Of a stretch of 48,100 nt of DNA, positions 20,368 to 35,774 are shown piece after piece (the stretch's first letter is position 1; every line of letters starts with the position of its first letter). Source of the DNA: Lujinxingiaceae bacterium. GTDB taxonomy: Bacteria; Myxococcota_A; Bradymonadia; Bradymonadales; Bradymonadaceae. Location: assembly GCA_013697635.1 (NCBI GenBank), contig JACCWM010000193.1, positions 1-48,100 on the forward strand. The letters run 5' to 3'. The translations under genes were made by a program, and so were the position numbers. The notes under the pieces were generated by a model, which did not search any database, was not told where the DNA came from, and worked only from the letters and a program-made list of their open reading frames with translations.

Positions 20368-21279
20368 TCAGCACTGCTCAAAGTAGTGAAGCACGCCGGG
20401 AAAGAGCGCATCGCAGCTCTCGCGCGCGCCGCGCGTGCTTCCGGGAAGCGCGAGCACGAGCGTGCCCTCGACGCTGCCGGCGATGCCGCGCGAGAGCATC
20501 GCGCGGGGCGTGCGCCGCTGGCCGTGGGCGCGCGCAAACTCCATGATCCCCGGAATCTGGCGATCGAGCACGCGCTCGAGGGTCTCGACGGTGAGATCGC
20601 GCTCGCCCAGGCCGGTGCCACCCACGGTGACGAGCAGATCGAGGCCGCGCGCGAGCAGGCCGTCGACGCTCTGGCGTAGCAGGTCGGTGTCATTGCTCAA
20701 GATCTCGTAGTCGACGAGCTCGATGTGTGCGTAGCGCTTGAGGCGCTCGAGCACGACCTGGGCGGCAGCGTCGTCCTTGTCGCCTGCGACCACGGCATCG
20801 GAGACCATGAGCACGGCCGCGCGAAGCGGGCGATCGCCGGCCTGGAGCCGGAAATCGGATTTGCCCCCGGATTTGGCGACCAGGCGAATCGACTGGATCT
20901 CGATCACGCCGGTATCGGCCGGTGCGTGGGGCTTGAGCATGTCGTAGAGCGTGAGCGCGCACATGCTCGCGGCGCTGAGCGCCTCCATCTCGACGCCGGT
21001 CGAGGCCATGGTCTTGACCGTGGCGCGAAGGGCGATGCCGTCGGCCTCAAAACTGTAGGCGACGTTGGCGTAGGTTATCGGCACCGGATGGCAAAAGGGG
21101 ATGTTCTCCCAGGTGCGCTTCGCGGCCATGACGCCGGCCACGCGGGCCACCTCGAGCGCATCGCCCTTGTCGGTGCGACGGCCCTGGTCGACGCTCTCGA
21201 GGATGGCAGCGTCGATCTTCAAGAAAGCCTCGGCCACGGCCGTGCGCAGCGTCTCGATTTTATCGGTGATGTCTTTCAT
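20368..21279 (-). CDS. moaCB: MoaC-MoaB fusion, bifunctional molybdenum cofactor biosynthesis protein
   Basis: Two Moco enzymes in one 303-residue chain. The N-terminal half (about 1-148) is MoaC, cyclic pyranopterin monophosphate synthase: KGDALEVARVAGVMAAKRT, IPFCHP, VKTMASTGVEMEAL and LVAKSGGKSDF are all conserved. The C-terminal half (about 155-303) is MoaB/Mog-like, the molybdopterin adenylyltransferase fold, with VTVGGTGLGERD and LPGSTRGARES. MoaC-MoaB fusions are known in other bacteria. The ATG overlaps the moaDE stop by four bases (ATGA), so translation is coupled. It is last in the moaA-moaDE-moaCB operon. It acts in the cytosol. Confidence 0.93.
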   Translation of the reverse strand: MKDITDKIETLRTAVAEAFLKIDAAILESVDQGRRTDKGDALEVARVAGVMAAKRTWENIPFCHPVPITYANVAYSFEADGIALRATVKTMASTGVEMEALSAASMCALTLYDMLKPHAPADTGVIEIQSIRLVAKSGGKSDFRLQAGDRPLRAAVLMVSDAVVAGDKDDAAAQVVLERLKRYAHIELVDYEILSNDTDLLRQSVDGLLARGLDLLVTVGGTGLGERDLTVETLERVLDRQIPGIMEFARAHGQRRTPRAMLSRGIAGSVEGTLVLALPGSTRGARESCDALFPGVLHYFEQC

Positions 21280-21986
21280 GGTTTGGGGCCTTCTCGCATG
21301 GGCACGCCGTCCAAAAACTGGCTGTCGCCCTCCTCGTAATGTTCCTGCTTCCAGATCGGCGTGCGCTCCTTGAGCTCGTCGATCGCGTAGCGTGCGCCCT
21401 CAAAGGCCGCCGCGCGATGGGCGGCGCGCACCACGACGAGCACGCTCGACTGGCCGACCTCGACGCGCCCGATGCGATGCTGGATGCGGCATCGCCTGGT
21501 CGCAAAGCGCGTGAGCACCTCTTGTTCGATCGCAGCGAGCACGCCGGCGGCGATCGGCTCGTGGGCCTCGTAGGTGATCGCGACCACGCGCCTTCCCAGA
21601 TTGTGATCGCGAATGTCGCCGCTAAAGACCACCAGGCCGCCGCAGTGCGCATCGTCAGTCTGGGCGAGCAGGGCCAAGAGATCGAGGGGCGCCTCGCTCA
21701 GGTGGGCCTCGCTGGGCCGGTGAGCGCCGCTGCCGCCGCTCACCGGCGGCAGCAGGCAAACCTCGTCGCCGTCTTGCACGAGGTAGTCGCGCCCGACGAT
21801 CTCCGGGCCCACCGAGAGTGCAACCTTGCCAAGGTTTTGCGCCAGGGCCGGGAACTGAGCGGCGACCAGCTCGAGCAAGGCCGAGGCAGCCAGCGTCTGG
21901 GCGCCGGCCACGCTCAAGCAGTGCTCACGGCAGCCGGCCTGGTAGCGCAGTCCCCCAAAGAATACGATTTTCACCTGCATGATCAC
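21276..21986 (-). CDS. moaX: MoaD-MoaE fusion (MoaX-like molybdopterin synthase)
   Basis: Both subunits of molybdopterin synthase in one 236-residue chain. Residues 1-85 are the ubiquitin-like sulfur carrier MoaD, ending in LLPPVSGG (Gly84-Gly85 from the GTG start at 21986). Residues from Ser 86 on are MoaE, with FSGDIRDHN, TYEAH, HRIGRVEVG, AHR and TPIWKQEHY. MoaD normally needs a free C-terminal Gly-Gly to be adenylated and thiocarboxylated. Here Gly-Gly is internal and followed by Ser, so processing after the second Gly is expected, as reported for the mycobacterial fusion MoaX. An ATG two codons downstream is an alternative start. The gene overlaps moaCB by four bases and follows moaA by 18. 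Confidence 0.92.
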   Translation of the reverse strand: MIMQVKIVFFGGLRYQAGCREHCLSVAGAQTLAASALLELVAAQFPALAQNLGKVALSVGPEIVGRDYLVQDGDEVCLLPPVSGGSGAHRPSEAHLSEAPLDLLALLAQTDDAHCGGLVVFSGDIRDHNLGRRVVAITYEAHEPIAAGVLAAIEQEVLTRFATRRCRIQHRIGRVEVGQSSVLVVVRAAHRAAAFEGARYAIDELKERTPIWKQEHYEEGDSQFLDGVPMREGPKP

Positions 21987-22004
21987 CCGCTAGTTTTGAG
22001 CGAT

Positions 22005-22988
22005 CTAGCCGCCCAGCGTCGACATCCCGATGCGCGTCACCTGCCCGTTCTCCCAGTTGTGGCCGGCGGGTTTCTCGCCGATGGCGCGCACAAAGCCGGC
22101 CTCGATGCCCTCCTCGTCGCCGCGGCGAATCGCCTCGGAGATGTCGACGTGTTTGTCGAAGGCCAAACAGGCGCGCAGCTCGCCCGTTGAGGTCAGGCGC
22201 ATGCGCGAGCAGGTGCCGCAATACTTGTTGGAGAGCGGCGTAATGAAGCCGAGTTTCCCCTTGGCGCCGGGCACGCCGTAGTAGCAGGCTGGGCCGTTGC
22301 CACCGTCGCCTCCCAGCGCGACGAGCCCGCGCGTCTCGACGAGGCGATCCTTGAGCTCGGTCAAATTGAGGTAGCCGCCGATGTCGCCCATCTTGGCCCC
22401 TTCGCCAATGGGCATCAGCTCCATGAAGCGCACGGAGATGTCATGCTGCATGGTCAGCTCGATCCAGTCGTCGATCTCGTCGTCGTTAAAGCCGCTGAGC
22501 AGCAAGGTGTTGATCTTGATCGGCGCCAAGCCAACGCGCGTGGCCGCCTCGATACCTCGCCATACCGTCTCGAGCACGCCGTGGCGCGTAATCTTCTCAA
22601 AGCGATCGGGGCGCAAGGAGTCCAGGCTGACGTTGACCCGGTCGAGGCCGGCCTCGGCCAGCGCCTCGGCGTGGCGCTCGAGCAGCAAAGCGTTGGTCGT
22701 CAGCGAGACATTCGTGCTGTCGGTCTCACGCTTGAGCATTCCGATCAGCGCCGGCAACTCCCGGCGCAGCAGCGGCTCACCACCGGTCACCCGGATGCGG
22801 TCGATGCCCAGCCGATTGGCCACGCGCACCGTGGCGACGATCTGCTCGAAGCTCAAGAGCTGCTCGCGCGGCGCACAGGCCACGCCCGTTACCGGCATGC
22901 AGTAGTGACAGCGCAGATTGCACTTGTCTGTCACCGAGATGCGCATTGCGTTGTGAACGCGACCAAACCGATCGATCAACTGCTTCAT
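22005..22988 (-). CDS. moaA: GTP 3',8-cyclase MoaA (radical SAM)
   Basis: Radical SAM enzyme that, with MoaC, turns GTP into cyclic pyranopterin monophosphate, the first Moco step. The N-terminal 4Fe-4S motif is CNLRCHYC. The GGEPLLR motif follows. The C-terminal cluster cysteines are in YCGTCSRMRLTSTGELRACL. The chain ends in STLGG; a C-terminal Gly-Gly is functionally important in MoaA. At 327 residues it has normal length. The ATG is preceded by GGGAAAG. It opens the operon; a promoter-like pair lies 50-78 bases upstream. No moeA, mogA or molybdate transporter gene is within the window. Confidence 0.96.
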   Translation of the reverse strand: MKQLIDRFGRVHNAMRISVTDKCNLRCHYCMPVTGVACAPREQLLSFEQIVATVRVANRLGIDRIRVTGGEPLLRRELPALIGMLKRETDSTNVSLTTNALLLERHAEALAEAGLDRVNVSLDSLRPDRFEKITRHGVLETVWRGIEAATRVGLAPIKINTLLLSGFNDDEIDDWIELTMQHDISVRFMELMPIGEGAKMGDIGGYLNLTELKDRLVETRGLVALGGDGGNGPACYYGVPGAKGKLGFITPLSNKYCGTCSRMRLTSTGELRACLAFDKHVDISEAIRRGDEEGIEAGFVRAIGEKPAGHNWENGQVTRIGMSTLGG

Positions 22989-33381: not shown

Positions 33382-34866
33382 TCACGCCGCTGGCGGTGCC
33401 AGACGCTTGAGCGTTCGAAGGCCACCGCGAAGGCTGAAGGCCTTATAGCCCAGCGGGCGCAGCGCCTCGGCCAAAAAGGCGCTCTTGAGGCCGACATCGC
33501 AAAACAGCAAATAGCAGCGATCGCGGGGCAGCAGCGTGAACTGGTGGATCGCTGTCTCAAAGGCCACGTTGACCGCGTCAGGATAACTCCAGCTCTTGAA
33601 GGCCGCCGGCGAGCGAAGGTCGACCACGAGCGCGTCGCCGGGCACGCGGTCGACCTCGACGTCGATCAAAAGCGGCTCGCCCAGCTCGTCCATCGAGAGC
33701 ACGCGCCGGTGGGCGACCAGCGTCTCGAGCAGGCTCGAATCCAGGCGCGCCTCCTCGGCGTCGAGCTGCTCCATGGTCGAGCGGGTCACCGGCTTGCCGC
33801 CGCCGAGCGCGCAAAACTCCGGCACCCCCGAGCAGATCTCGTAGGTGCCGATGAGGCGCGCCTGGGCGATGATCTCGTCCTTGTTAAAGCCCAGCAGCGG
33901 GCGCAGCACGGGCGTGGCCAGCGGCACCGAGATCGCCGCCAGATTCGACAAGGTCTGGGACGACACCTGGCCGAGCGCCTCGCCGGTGATCAGGGCGATG
34001 TGCGTGCCGTCGCGCGCGACGAGATCGCCCGCGCGCACCATCAAACGCTTGAGCAAGAGCTGCCAGAAGCGACCGCGCACGCCCTGCTTCATCTCCGCTA
34101 TCACCGGGCGAAAATCGACGATGTGCAGCTTGGCCGCATAGCCGTGAACCCAGGCTTTGGCCAACACGTCGGTGACCTCGCGCACGGCGCGCTGGTGAGG
34201 CGGGCCGCCCAGATCGAAGAACAAAAAGTCCAGCGCCACCCCGCGCTTGAGCATCATCCACGAGGCGACGGCCGAGTCGAAGCCGCCCGACATCAACGAG
34301 AGCGCGCGGCCCTCCACGCCGCTGGGAAGGCCGGCCGGCCCGCTCAACTCGCGATCGAAGAAGAACACCTCTTTGGGCCGAAGTTCGACACCGACATGGA
34401 CCTCGGCCGAGCTCAGATCGACGCGTCCGCCGGCCTCGACGAGGCGTTTTCCCAGCGCCCGCTCGAGATCCTGGGAGTTGAAATCAAAGAGCTCGCGGTT
34501 TCCCACGCGGCGCGCCTCGACGGCGAAGCGCTTGTTGGCCACGCGCGCATCGAACAGGCTCGCGCCGATCGCCACGATGTCCTCGATCGTGCTCCAGTTC
34601 TGGGCGCGCGAGTAGTAGAGCTTTTGGACGCCGAAGACGCGGCTCAATATCTCGACGGCGCGCTCATCGTCGGTCTCGACGTCGACGCGATACCACTGAT
34701 CGCGGATCGTGTGGCTGATGTTCGCCGCGCCGAGCGCGGCTGCAATATTGCGAAGGAATTGACTCTGAAAGCGCTTTCGGGTGCTCGGCGCCTTGGTGCA
34801 CATCTCCCCGGACAACCGCAACACGATCACAAGGCGGTTGTTCGACAGCTCCTGGGCCAAACTCAC
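33382..34866 (-). CDS. thiI: tRNA 4-thiouridine synthase ThiI with rhodanese domain
   Basis: Sulfurtransferase that makes s4U8 in tRNA and, in organisms with the rhodanese domain, can also supply sulfur to thiamine thiazole. A ferredoxin-like/THUMP region (about 1-180) precedes the ATP-pyrophosphatase with SGGFDSAVASW. The first catalytic Cys region is VPEFCALGGGKPVT. The C-terminal rhodanese domain (about 385-494) has Cys in LLFCDVGLKSA. I start it at GTG 34866, which overlaps the agmatinase stop by four bases (GTGA) and has AGAGG seven bases upstream; TTG 34872 is an alternative. It is last in the dynamin-agmatinase-thiI unit. Confidence 0.94.
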   Translation of the reverse strand: MSLAQELSNNRLVIVLRLSGEMCTKAPSTRKRFQSQFLRNIAAALGAANISHTIRDQWYRVDVETDDERAVEILSRVFGVQKLYYSRAQNWSTIEDIVAIGASLFDARVANKRFAVEARRVGNRELFDFNSQDLERALGKRLVEAGGRVDLSSAEVHVGVELRPKEVFFFDRELSGPAGLPSGVEGRALSLMSGGFDSAVASWMMLKRGVALDFLFFDLGGPPHQRAVREVTDVLAKAWVHGYAAKLHIVDFRPVIAEMKQGVRGRFWQLLLKRLMVRAGDLVARDGTHIALITGEALGQVSSQTLSNLAAISVPLATPVLRPLLGFNKDEIIAQARLIGTYEICSGVPEFCALGGGKPVTRSTMEQLDAEEARLDSSLLETLVAHRRVLSMDELGEPLLIDVEVDRVPGDALVVDLRSPAAFKSWSYPDAVNVAFETAIHQFTLLPRDRCYLLFCDVGLKSAFLAEALRPLGYKAFSLRGGLRTLKRLAPPAA

Positions 34867-35774
34867 AAGCAAACCTCTTCACTGGCGGCATCGAGCGCGA
34901 TCAAGAGCTCGCGGATCATCTTGGCCGCGAGCGCCGAGGTGATCCCCGCGTGGTCGAGCACCGGGCTGACCTCGACCAGATCGAAGCCGACCAGGTTGAA
35001 GCGCGGCAAAAAGCGCATGATCTCGAGCGCCTCGCGACTGCTCAGCCCACCGGCCTCGGGCGTGCCCGTGCCCGGCGCAAAGGCCGGATCGAGCGCGTCG
35101 ATGTCAAAGGTGCAGTAGACCGGCCGATCGCCCCACATCTGGCGCACGGACTCGAGCTGGCGGCGCACATCCAAGGCACCCTCCACCTGAAGCTGCAATA
35201 TGTGCTCGCGGGCAAAGATCGCCTCCTCGCGTGGCCCGCTGCGAATGCCCAGCTGCACCAGCCGCGACGGCGAATCCGAGGTCGAGAATCCCAGCGTATT
35301 CCAGCACTGGCGAAGCGCCGTCGCGTGGCTGAGCGCTTGCCCGGCATAGGTCTCGCGAAGGTCGAAGTGCGCGTCGATGTGCAAGATCACCACGTCCGGA
35401 TAGTGGCGCCCGATCGCGCGAATAATCCCGGCCGTCACCAGATGCTCGCCGCCGAGCGCTATCGGACGCTTGCCGCTGGCCAAGATCGCCTCGACGGCGG
35501 CATCAATCGCCTCGAGCGAGCCCGCCGCATTGCCAAAGGGCAGCTCCACATCGCCCGCGTCAAAAAAAGAGTCCTCGCGCAGCTCACGGCCCTGCTCGAC
35601 CGAATAGGTCTCCAGATTGTCCGAGAAATAGCGGATCTCTTTGGGCCCAAGGCGCGTGCCAGCGCGAAAACAGCACGTAAAATCCATCGGAATACCAAAG
35701 AGCACGTTGCGCACCCCTTCGGCCGACTGGGCTGAACCGATAAATGAGCCATAAGGCTGGTGAAGCAGGGACAT
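34863..35774 (-). CDS. speB: Agmatinase-family ureohydrolase
   Basis: Di-manganese ureohydrolase, 303 residues, that by family membership splits agmatine into putrescine and urea. Metal ligands are all present: GGEH (His), HIDAHFDLR (Asp, His, Asp) and TFDIDALDPAFAPGTGTPE (Asp, Asp). The N-terminal segment is the usual one of agmatinases, and the overall length fits. Agmatinase is more likely than arginase, but substrate choice cannot be settled by eye. ATG 35774 follows GGAG by six bases. It starts 17 bases after the dynamin-like gene and overlaps thiI. No arginine decarboxylase gene is in the window. Confidence 0.88.
   Translation of the reverse strand: MSLLHQPYGSFIGSAQSAEGVRNVLFGIPMDFTCCFRAGTRLGPKEIRYFSDNLETYSVEQGRELREDSFFDAGDVELPFGNAAGSLEAIDAAVEAILASGKRPIALGGEHLVTAGIIRAIGRHYPDVVILHIDAHFDLRETYAGQALSHATALRQCWNTLGFSTSDSPSRLVQLGIRSGPREEAIFAREHILQLQVEGALDVRRQLESVRQMWGDRPVYCTFDIDALDPAFAPGTGTPEAGGLSSREALEIMRFLPRFNLVGFDLVEVSPVLDHAGITSALAAKMIRELLIALDAASEEVCL

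Follow-up and report, generated by a model that had tools for sequence, protein, structure and literature searches.

How does a MoaD protein become available for molybdopterin synthesis when its sulfur-accepting Gly-Gly lies in the middle of a longer chain? In molybdopterin synthase chemistry, as outlined in PMC4326299, the end of MoaD must be free for adenylation and thiocarboxylation. The question is posed by a Moco operon of the window (the whole stretch of 48,100 nucleotides analysed here), where MoaD is joined in one frame to MoaE.

Make-up of the Moco operon

The initial annotation had read five Moco functions in three ORFs: MoaA, a MoaD-MoaE fusion and a MoaC-MoaB fusion. We found these three ORFs on the minus strand and confirmed all five domains with Pfam and NCBIfam profiles (Table 1). 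The MoaD and MoaE halves both pass their Pfam cut-offs, and both miss the NCBIfam equivalog cut-offs (for moaD, TIGR01682, 47.5 vs 66.15 bits; for MoaE, 86.2 vs 175 bits). The MoaC-MoaB protein has the same domain order as the bifunctional MoaC/MoaB proteins described by NF002947, and the profile shows no difference between them. The spacing of the genes was borne out in part. The 4-base overlap of moaD-moaE with moaC-moaB is as described, the shared bases being ATGA, and the 18-base gap after moaA holds if moaD-moaE starts at the GTG at 21986; an ATG at 21980, two codons further on, is the likelier start, as judged by its better fit to the N termini of aligned relatives, and with it the gap would be 24 bases. 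Some 10 kb from the operon (33382-34872, minus strand), the window also encodes a ThiI with THUMP and C-terminal rhodanese-like domains, a sulfur-transfer protein. Elsewhere the genome encodes a separate MogA (NF006932, 281 bits, cut-off 158), two further MoCF-domain proteins and three molybdopterin oxidoreductase family matches, and from this gene content the Moco pathway looks to be in use.

Table 1. Features of the Moco operon in the window and of the candidate protease locus on another contig
Feature	Coordinates	Strand	Evidence and remarks
moaA, GTP 3',8-cyclase	22005..22988	-	TIGR02666 344 bits, cut-off 284; Radical_SAM and Mob_synth_C
moaD-moaE fusion	21276..21986	-	Pfam ThiS then MoaE
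MoaD half, ending Gly84-Gly85	21732..21986	-	Pfam ThiS residues 7-85, 38.3 bits, cut-off 22.5
Junction Gly84-Gly85-Ser86	21729..21737	-	Sulfur-accepting Gly-Gly; codons of Gly84-Gly85 21737-21732, of Ser86 21731-21729; predicted scissile bond Gly85/Ser86
MoaE half	21276..21731	-	Pfam MoaE residues 97-208, 108.6 bits; stop 21276-21278
moaC-moaB fusion	20368..21279	-	Pfam MoaC then MoCF_biosynth; NF002947 323.9 bits, cut-off 285
MoaC half	20863..21279	-	Pfam MoaC residues 1-139, 146.8 bits
MoaB half (MoCF_biosynth domain)	20398..20817	-	PF00994 residues 155-294, 83.4 bits
Candidate JAMM protease, 162 aa	L023 1318-1806 (different contig from window)		Pfam Prok-JAB 60.9 bits, cut-off 25
CysO-like ThiS-type protein, 93 aa	L023:2754-3035		Ends AIAGGRA

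The Gly-Gly junction and the distribution of the fusion

As had been noted, the Gly-Gly of MoaD is internal and followed by Ser. The likeness to MoaX of M. tuberculosis, also a MoaD-MoaE fusion with Gly-Gly followed by Ser, holds for the junction; in MoaX the bond joining Gly82 to Ser83 is cut, and this cut is reported as required for activity (PMC4326299). The M. tuberculosis genome, however, encodes several molybdopterin synthases, MoaX among them, whereas here no MoaE match other than the fusion was found, and the arrangement is far more widespread than the mycobacterial comparison suggests. In a scan of named genomes, the fusion formed one frame in 69 of the 80 loci kept, among them loci of Acidobacteria, Myxococcus, Paenibacillus, Thermus and Chloroflexi; Myxococcus xanthus AM003 is one of the genomes with the single-frame form. 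Both fusions of the operon are thus of known kinds, and the MoaD-MoaE fusion, which occurs often both within the phylum and among public genomes, is already understood in other bacteria. Since the scan pattern itself contained GG, conservation of GG in the named loci would be circular, and our claim of conservation is based on an alignment from the class alone.

The class set comprised 57 genomes, 39 of which had a match to the fusion protein. Reading the loci behind these matches, we found a fused frame in 28 genomes and separate moaD and moaE genes in 11. Four of the 28 fused loci reach a contig end (G006, G021, G055 and G056), and the alignment holds 25 fusions, G006, G021 and G056 being partial there and omitted. 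PPV followed by Gly-Gly is invariant in all 25; the three omitted partial fusions have the GG as well, in G006 after PPA, not PPV. The residue after Gly-Gly varies (S in 11, A in 8, T in 3, V in 2 and H in 1 of the 25), as does the length of the linker. Where the genes are separate, in 11 class genomes, the moaD frame ends exactly after GG without exception. The unfused proteins thus place the fusion junction at the native C terminus of MoaD, which a cut at this point would regenerate. On the MoaE side, R126, H190, R191, K206 and K213 are invariant in all 25 aligned fusions; these presumably correspond to the catalytic residues of E. coli MoaE. An earlier study cited in PMC8832034 found that HvJAMM1 cuts linear fusions in vitro without needing a diglycine, so that the invariance of GG would reflect the chemistry of MoaD more than recognition by a protease. 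Taking chemistry, conservation and published precedents together, a cut after Gly-Gly is the best reading of the fusion, and the chain very probably becomes functional only once it is cut.

A candidate JAMM protease and its co-occurrence with the fusion

What, then, might make the cut? The initial annotation had seen M48 and M50-like proteases in the window and no gene obviously dedicated to this task. Genes for an M48 and an M50B-like protease are indeed there, and for the window the statement stands. It fails for the genome (6.2 Mb, 99.45% complete), in which the search for a JAMM/Mec+-type protease that had been proposed found one Prok-JAB (PF14464) match, outside the window. The JAMM motif, defined as Glu plus H-S/T-H-x7-S-x2-D (PMC8832034), is intact in the candidate: E22, H85, S86, H87, S95 and D98 are invariant across it and 18 relatives (19 sequences aligned). 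Its gene lies downstream of a PALP-family gene, whose product is likely a cysteine synthase, and of the gene for the CysO-like protein, all on the same strand of L023. A CysO-like Ubl, a cysteine-synthase-like gene and a JAMM gene adjoining one another are the make-up of a cysO-cysM-mec+ type cluster. The CysO of M. tuberculosis ends in Gly-Gly; the protein here ends in GG-RA. Among relatives, the CysO-like C termini are GG in some and GG plus one or two residues in others. The residues after this Gly-Gly vary (RA, RS, QS, KP, LR, RL, EA, VF, R and H in L104-L133 and L023), and the CysO-like genes of relatives adjoin a JAMM gene in many cases. Operons of the same make-up, with a ThiS/MoaD-like gene, a JAB gene and a cysteine synthase gene, are described in a Genome Biol. 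2006 article (PMC1779556, rows 4c and 4d); the cluster here differs from them in that the E1 is on another contig and in the two residues after the Gly-Gly of the CysO-like protein. In the relatives G002, G004 and G005, where wider loci were read, the JAMM gene likewise adjoins a cysteine-synthase-like gene, not moaDE. Because it is located with cysteine-synthase-like and CysO-like genes, the JAMM is probably shared rather than dedicated to the moaDE cut. The window's genome has two carriers with a blocked Gly-Gly: two residues block it in the CysO-like protein, and all of MoaE does so in MoaD. ThiS, third of the ThiS-family matches, has GG as its C terminus and adjoins thiG- and thiE-like genes (by eye).

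We compared the occurrence of JAMM with that of the fusion. Within the class, a JAMM was found in 25 of the 28 fusion-bearing genomes, compared with 4 of the 11 whose moaD and moaE are separate (Fisher p 0.0018, kinship uncorrected), the 25 including a weak hit in G021 that our own JAMM profile did not confirm, so that the count may be 24. G005 is positive by this own profile only; applied to the seven genomes that have separate genes and had scored negative for a JAMM, the same profile gave no hit. Three of these seven (G039, G012 and G001) have a completeness of only 81-87%, and gaps may account for some of the absences. The 4 of 11 genomes that carry a JAMM beside separate moaD and moaE genes show that the protease has other work. 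A fusion with no JAMM found occurs in G014, G056 and G006 of the class and, elsewhere in the phylum, in G254, G265 and G371; five of these six, including all three of the class, are 87-89% complete, and G371 is 92% complete. The one-contig genome G005 had been a further candidate counter-example and was dropped when the profile built from relatives found a JAMM with an intact motif in it. In the rest of the phylum, Prok-JAB was found in 104 of 107 genomes with an unbroken fusion among the matches listed, that is, with listed matches spanning both domains without a stop (kinship uncorrected; four of the 104 are weak, namely G166, G210, G229 and G237, with E 2.6e-5 to 9.0e-4, and Prok-JAB includes proteins with other work). 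The corresponding counts are 32 of 58 genomes without a fusion match and 137 of 155 in a mixed remainder that pools stop-containing, partial and unlisted matches. A tree-controlled comparison was not significant, the MoaE-half tree of 38 class genomes (G006 absent) offering only two supported independent pairs, or four when all branches are used. Judged by family, singleness and co-occurrence, the MoaD-MoaE protein is most likely a substrate of this JAMM.

The MoaE tree has a feature of its own. Rooted at its midpoint, it splits the window's MoaE and 13 others from the remaining 24 by a branch of 1.76 changes per column, and family f1 falls on both sides of this long branch. The class would hold two MoaE lineages, perhaps by transfer.

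Proposed maturation route and its alternatives

We propose, with a probability of roughly 0.82, that this is an ordinary Moco operon whose MoaD-MoaE protein, a widespread Ubl-MoaE fusion of the MoaX or DR2607 kind, is made inactive, is cut by a JAMM after Gly85 and then enters the normal sulfur route; of this route, we infer the cut, the protease making it and the order of the steps. The chain would be synthesised inactive, and a JAMM encoded elsewhere, most likely the candidate whose gene adjoins those of the cysteine-synthase-like and CysO-like proteins, would cut it after Gly85, freeing a normal MoaD with C-terminal Gly-Gly and a normal MoaE. A MoeB-like E1 with a rhodanese domain would then adenylate and sulfurate the end of MoaD, and MoaD would pass the sulfur on to MoaE, as happens in other molybdopterin synthases. 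The genome has two ThiF matches, one being this rhodanese-ThiF E1 and the other looking like TcdA by eye. In the E1 (L021:1438-2598, minus strand, G000), the rhodanese domain is N-terminal (residues 21-112), before ThiF (131-366); in mycobacterial MoeZR the rhodanese domain is C-terminal.

A close precedent comes from Deinococcus radiodurans, whose JAMM, DR0402, cleaves the fusion DR2607; a JAMM mutant is reported to accumulate precursor cPMP (PMC8832034). There as here, MoaD and MoaE form one chain and the JAMM is encoded away from it; here, in contrast, the JAMM gene adjoins cysteine-synthase-like and CysO-like genes, and the cutting is predicted. In Haloferax, a SAMP1-MoaE fusion is activated when HvJAMM1 cleaves it after Gly (PMC4443979). 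That system is alike in combining a linear Ubl-MoaE fusion with a JAMM as cutter and differs in that the fusion is artificial, the natural genes being separate.

The cut after Gly-Gly could instead be made by a protease other than the candidate JAMM, which we regard as unlikely. Such a view would suit the MoaX protease, described in 2015 as still to be identified (PMC4326299), the position of the JAMM gene beside a cysteine-synthase-like gene rather than moaDE in this genome and in G002, G004 and G005, and the six genomes in which the fusion is present and no JAMM was found. It would also suit the named genomes, where our own JAMM profile found no JAMM gene near moaDE in any of the 80 loci, taken with flanks of up to 3 kb. 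Yet exactly this bond is reported to be cut by JAMMs in Deinococcus and, within an artificial fusion, in Haloferax (PMC8832034, PMC4443979). The incompleteness of five of the six genomes also speaks against another protease, as does G005, which was first scored negative. The window offers conceivable cutters of its own in its M48 and M50B-like genes, but proteases of these two families are membrane-bound as a rule, and we found nothing that ties the two genes to a Gly-Gly cut or to Ubl processing.

That the fusion works uncut, with MoaD tethered and sulfur delivered by another carrier, seems to us highly improbable. The genome does have two other ThiS-type carriers, ThiS and the CysO-like protein, and in mycobacteria the MoaE part of cut MoaX was functional with another MoaD (PMC4326299). 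A tethered MoaD, however, would need no Gly-Gly, which all 25 aligned fusions keep; uncut MoaX and uncut SAMP1-MoaE are reported to be inactive (PMC4326299, PMC4443979); and the genomic neighbourhood of ThiS is that of thiG- and thiE-like genes. Relatives with unfused moaD and moaE, such as G011 of the same family, might raise the suspicion that the fusion is an artefact of assembly or annotation. We give this next to no weight, as it is refuted by the fused frame in 28 class genomes and by the single frame in 69 of the 80 named loci.

Other MoaD fusions were met as well. In G020 (contig C449; L042:3089-4120, plus strand, also L229), MoaD is joined via Gly-Gly-Ser to a regulator of the CRP/FNR type (Pfam ThiS, cNMP_binding and HTH_Crp_2); the gene comes after another moaA, the second of this genome, which belongs to a narK-usp-narK-usp-moaA cluster (genes labelled in part by eye). 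A full-length match to this MoaD-CRP protein was found in G020 only among the 57 class genomes (E <= 1e-20). One match, on contig C280 of G017, extends past a stop codon into the MoaD part of the query. The nearest regulator in G014 begins directly behind moaA and lacks a MoaD. A literature search gave no report of a MoaD-CRP fusion. A Thaumarchaeota MAG holds a possible MoaA-MoaD fusion (L220:1525-2910, plus strand), a single 462-aa frame whose MoaA-like part was recognised by eye and which stops right after the Gly-Gly of MoaD.

What is new here is that a likely protease can be named: a locus with no protease in sight becomes one with a candidate JAMM in the same genome. We tentatively suggest, at odds somewhat below even, that one JAMM matures two end-blocked Ubl carriers, the CysO-like protein (between GG and RA) and MoaD (between GG and Ser), so that cysteine and Moco synthesis would share one proteolytic checkpoint; in G020, where the same junction type joins MoaD to the CRP/FNR-type regulator, the same cut would release a transcription factor. 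Were one JAMM to mature both carriers, the supply of sulfur to cysteine and to Moco alike would depend on a single enzyme.
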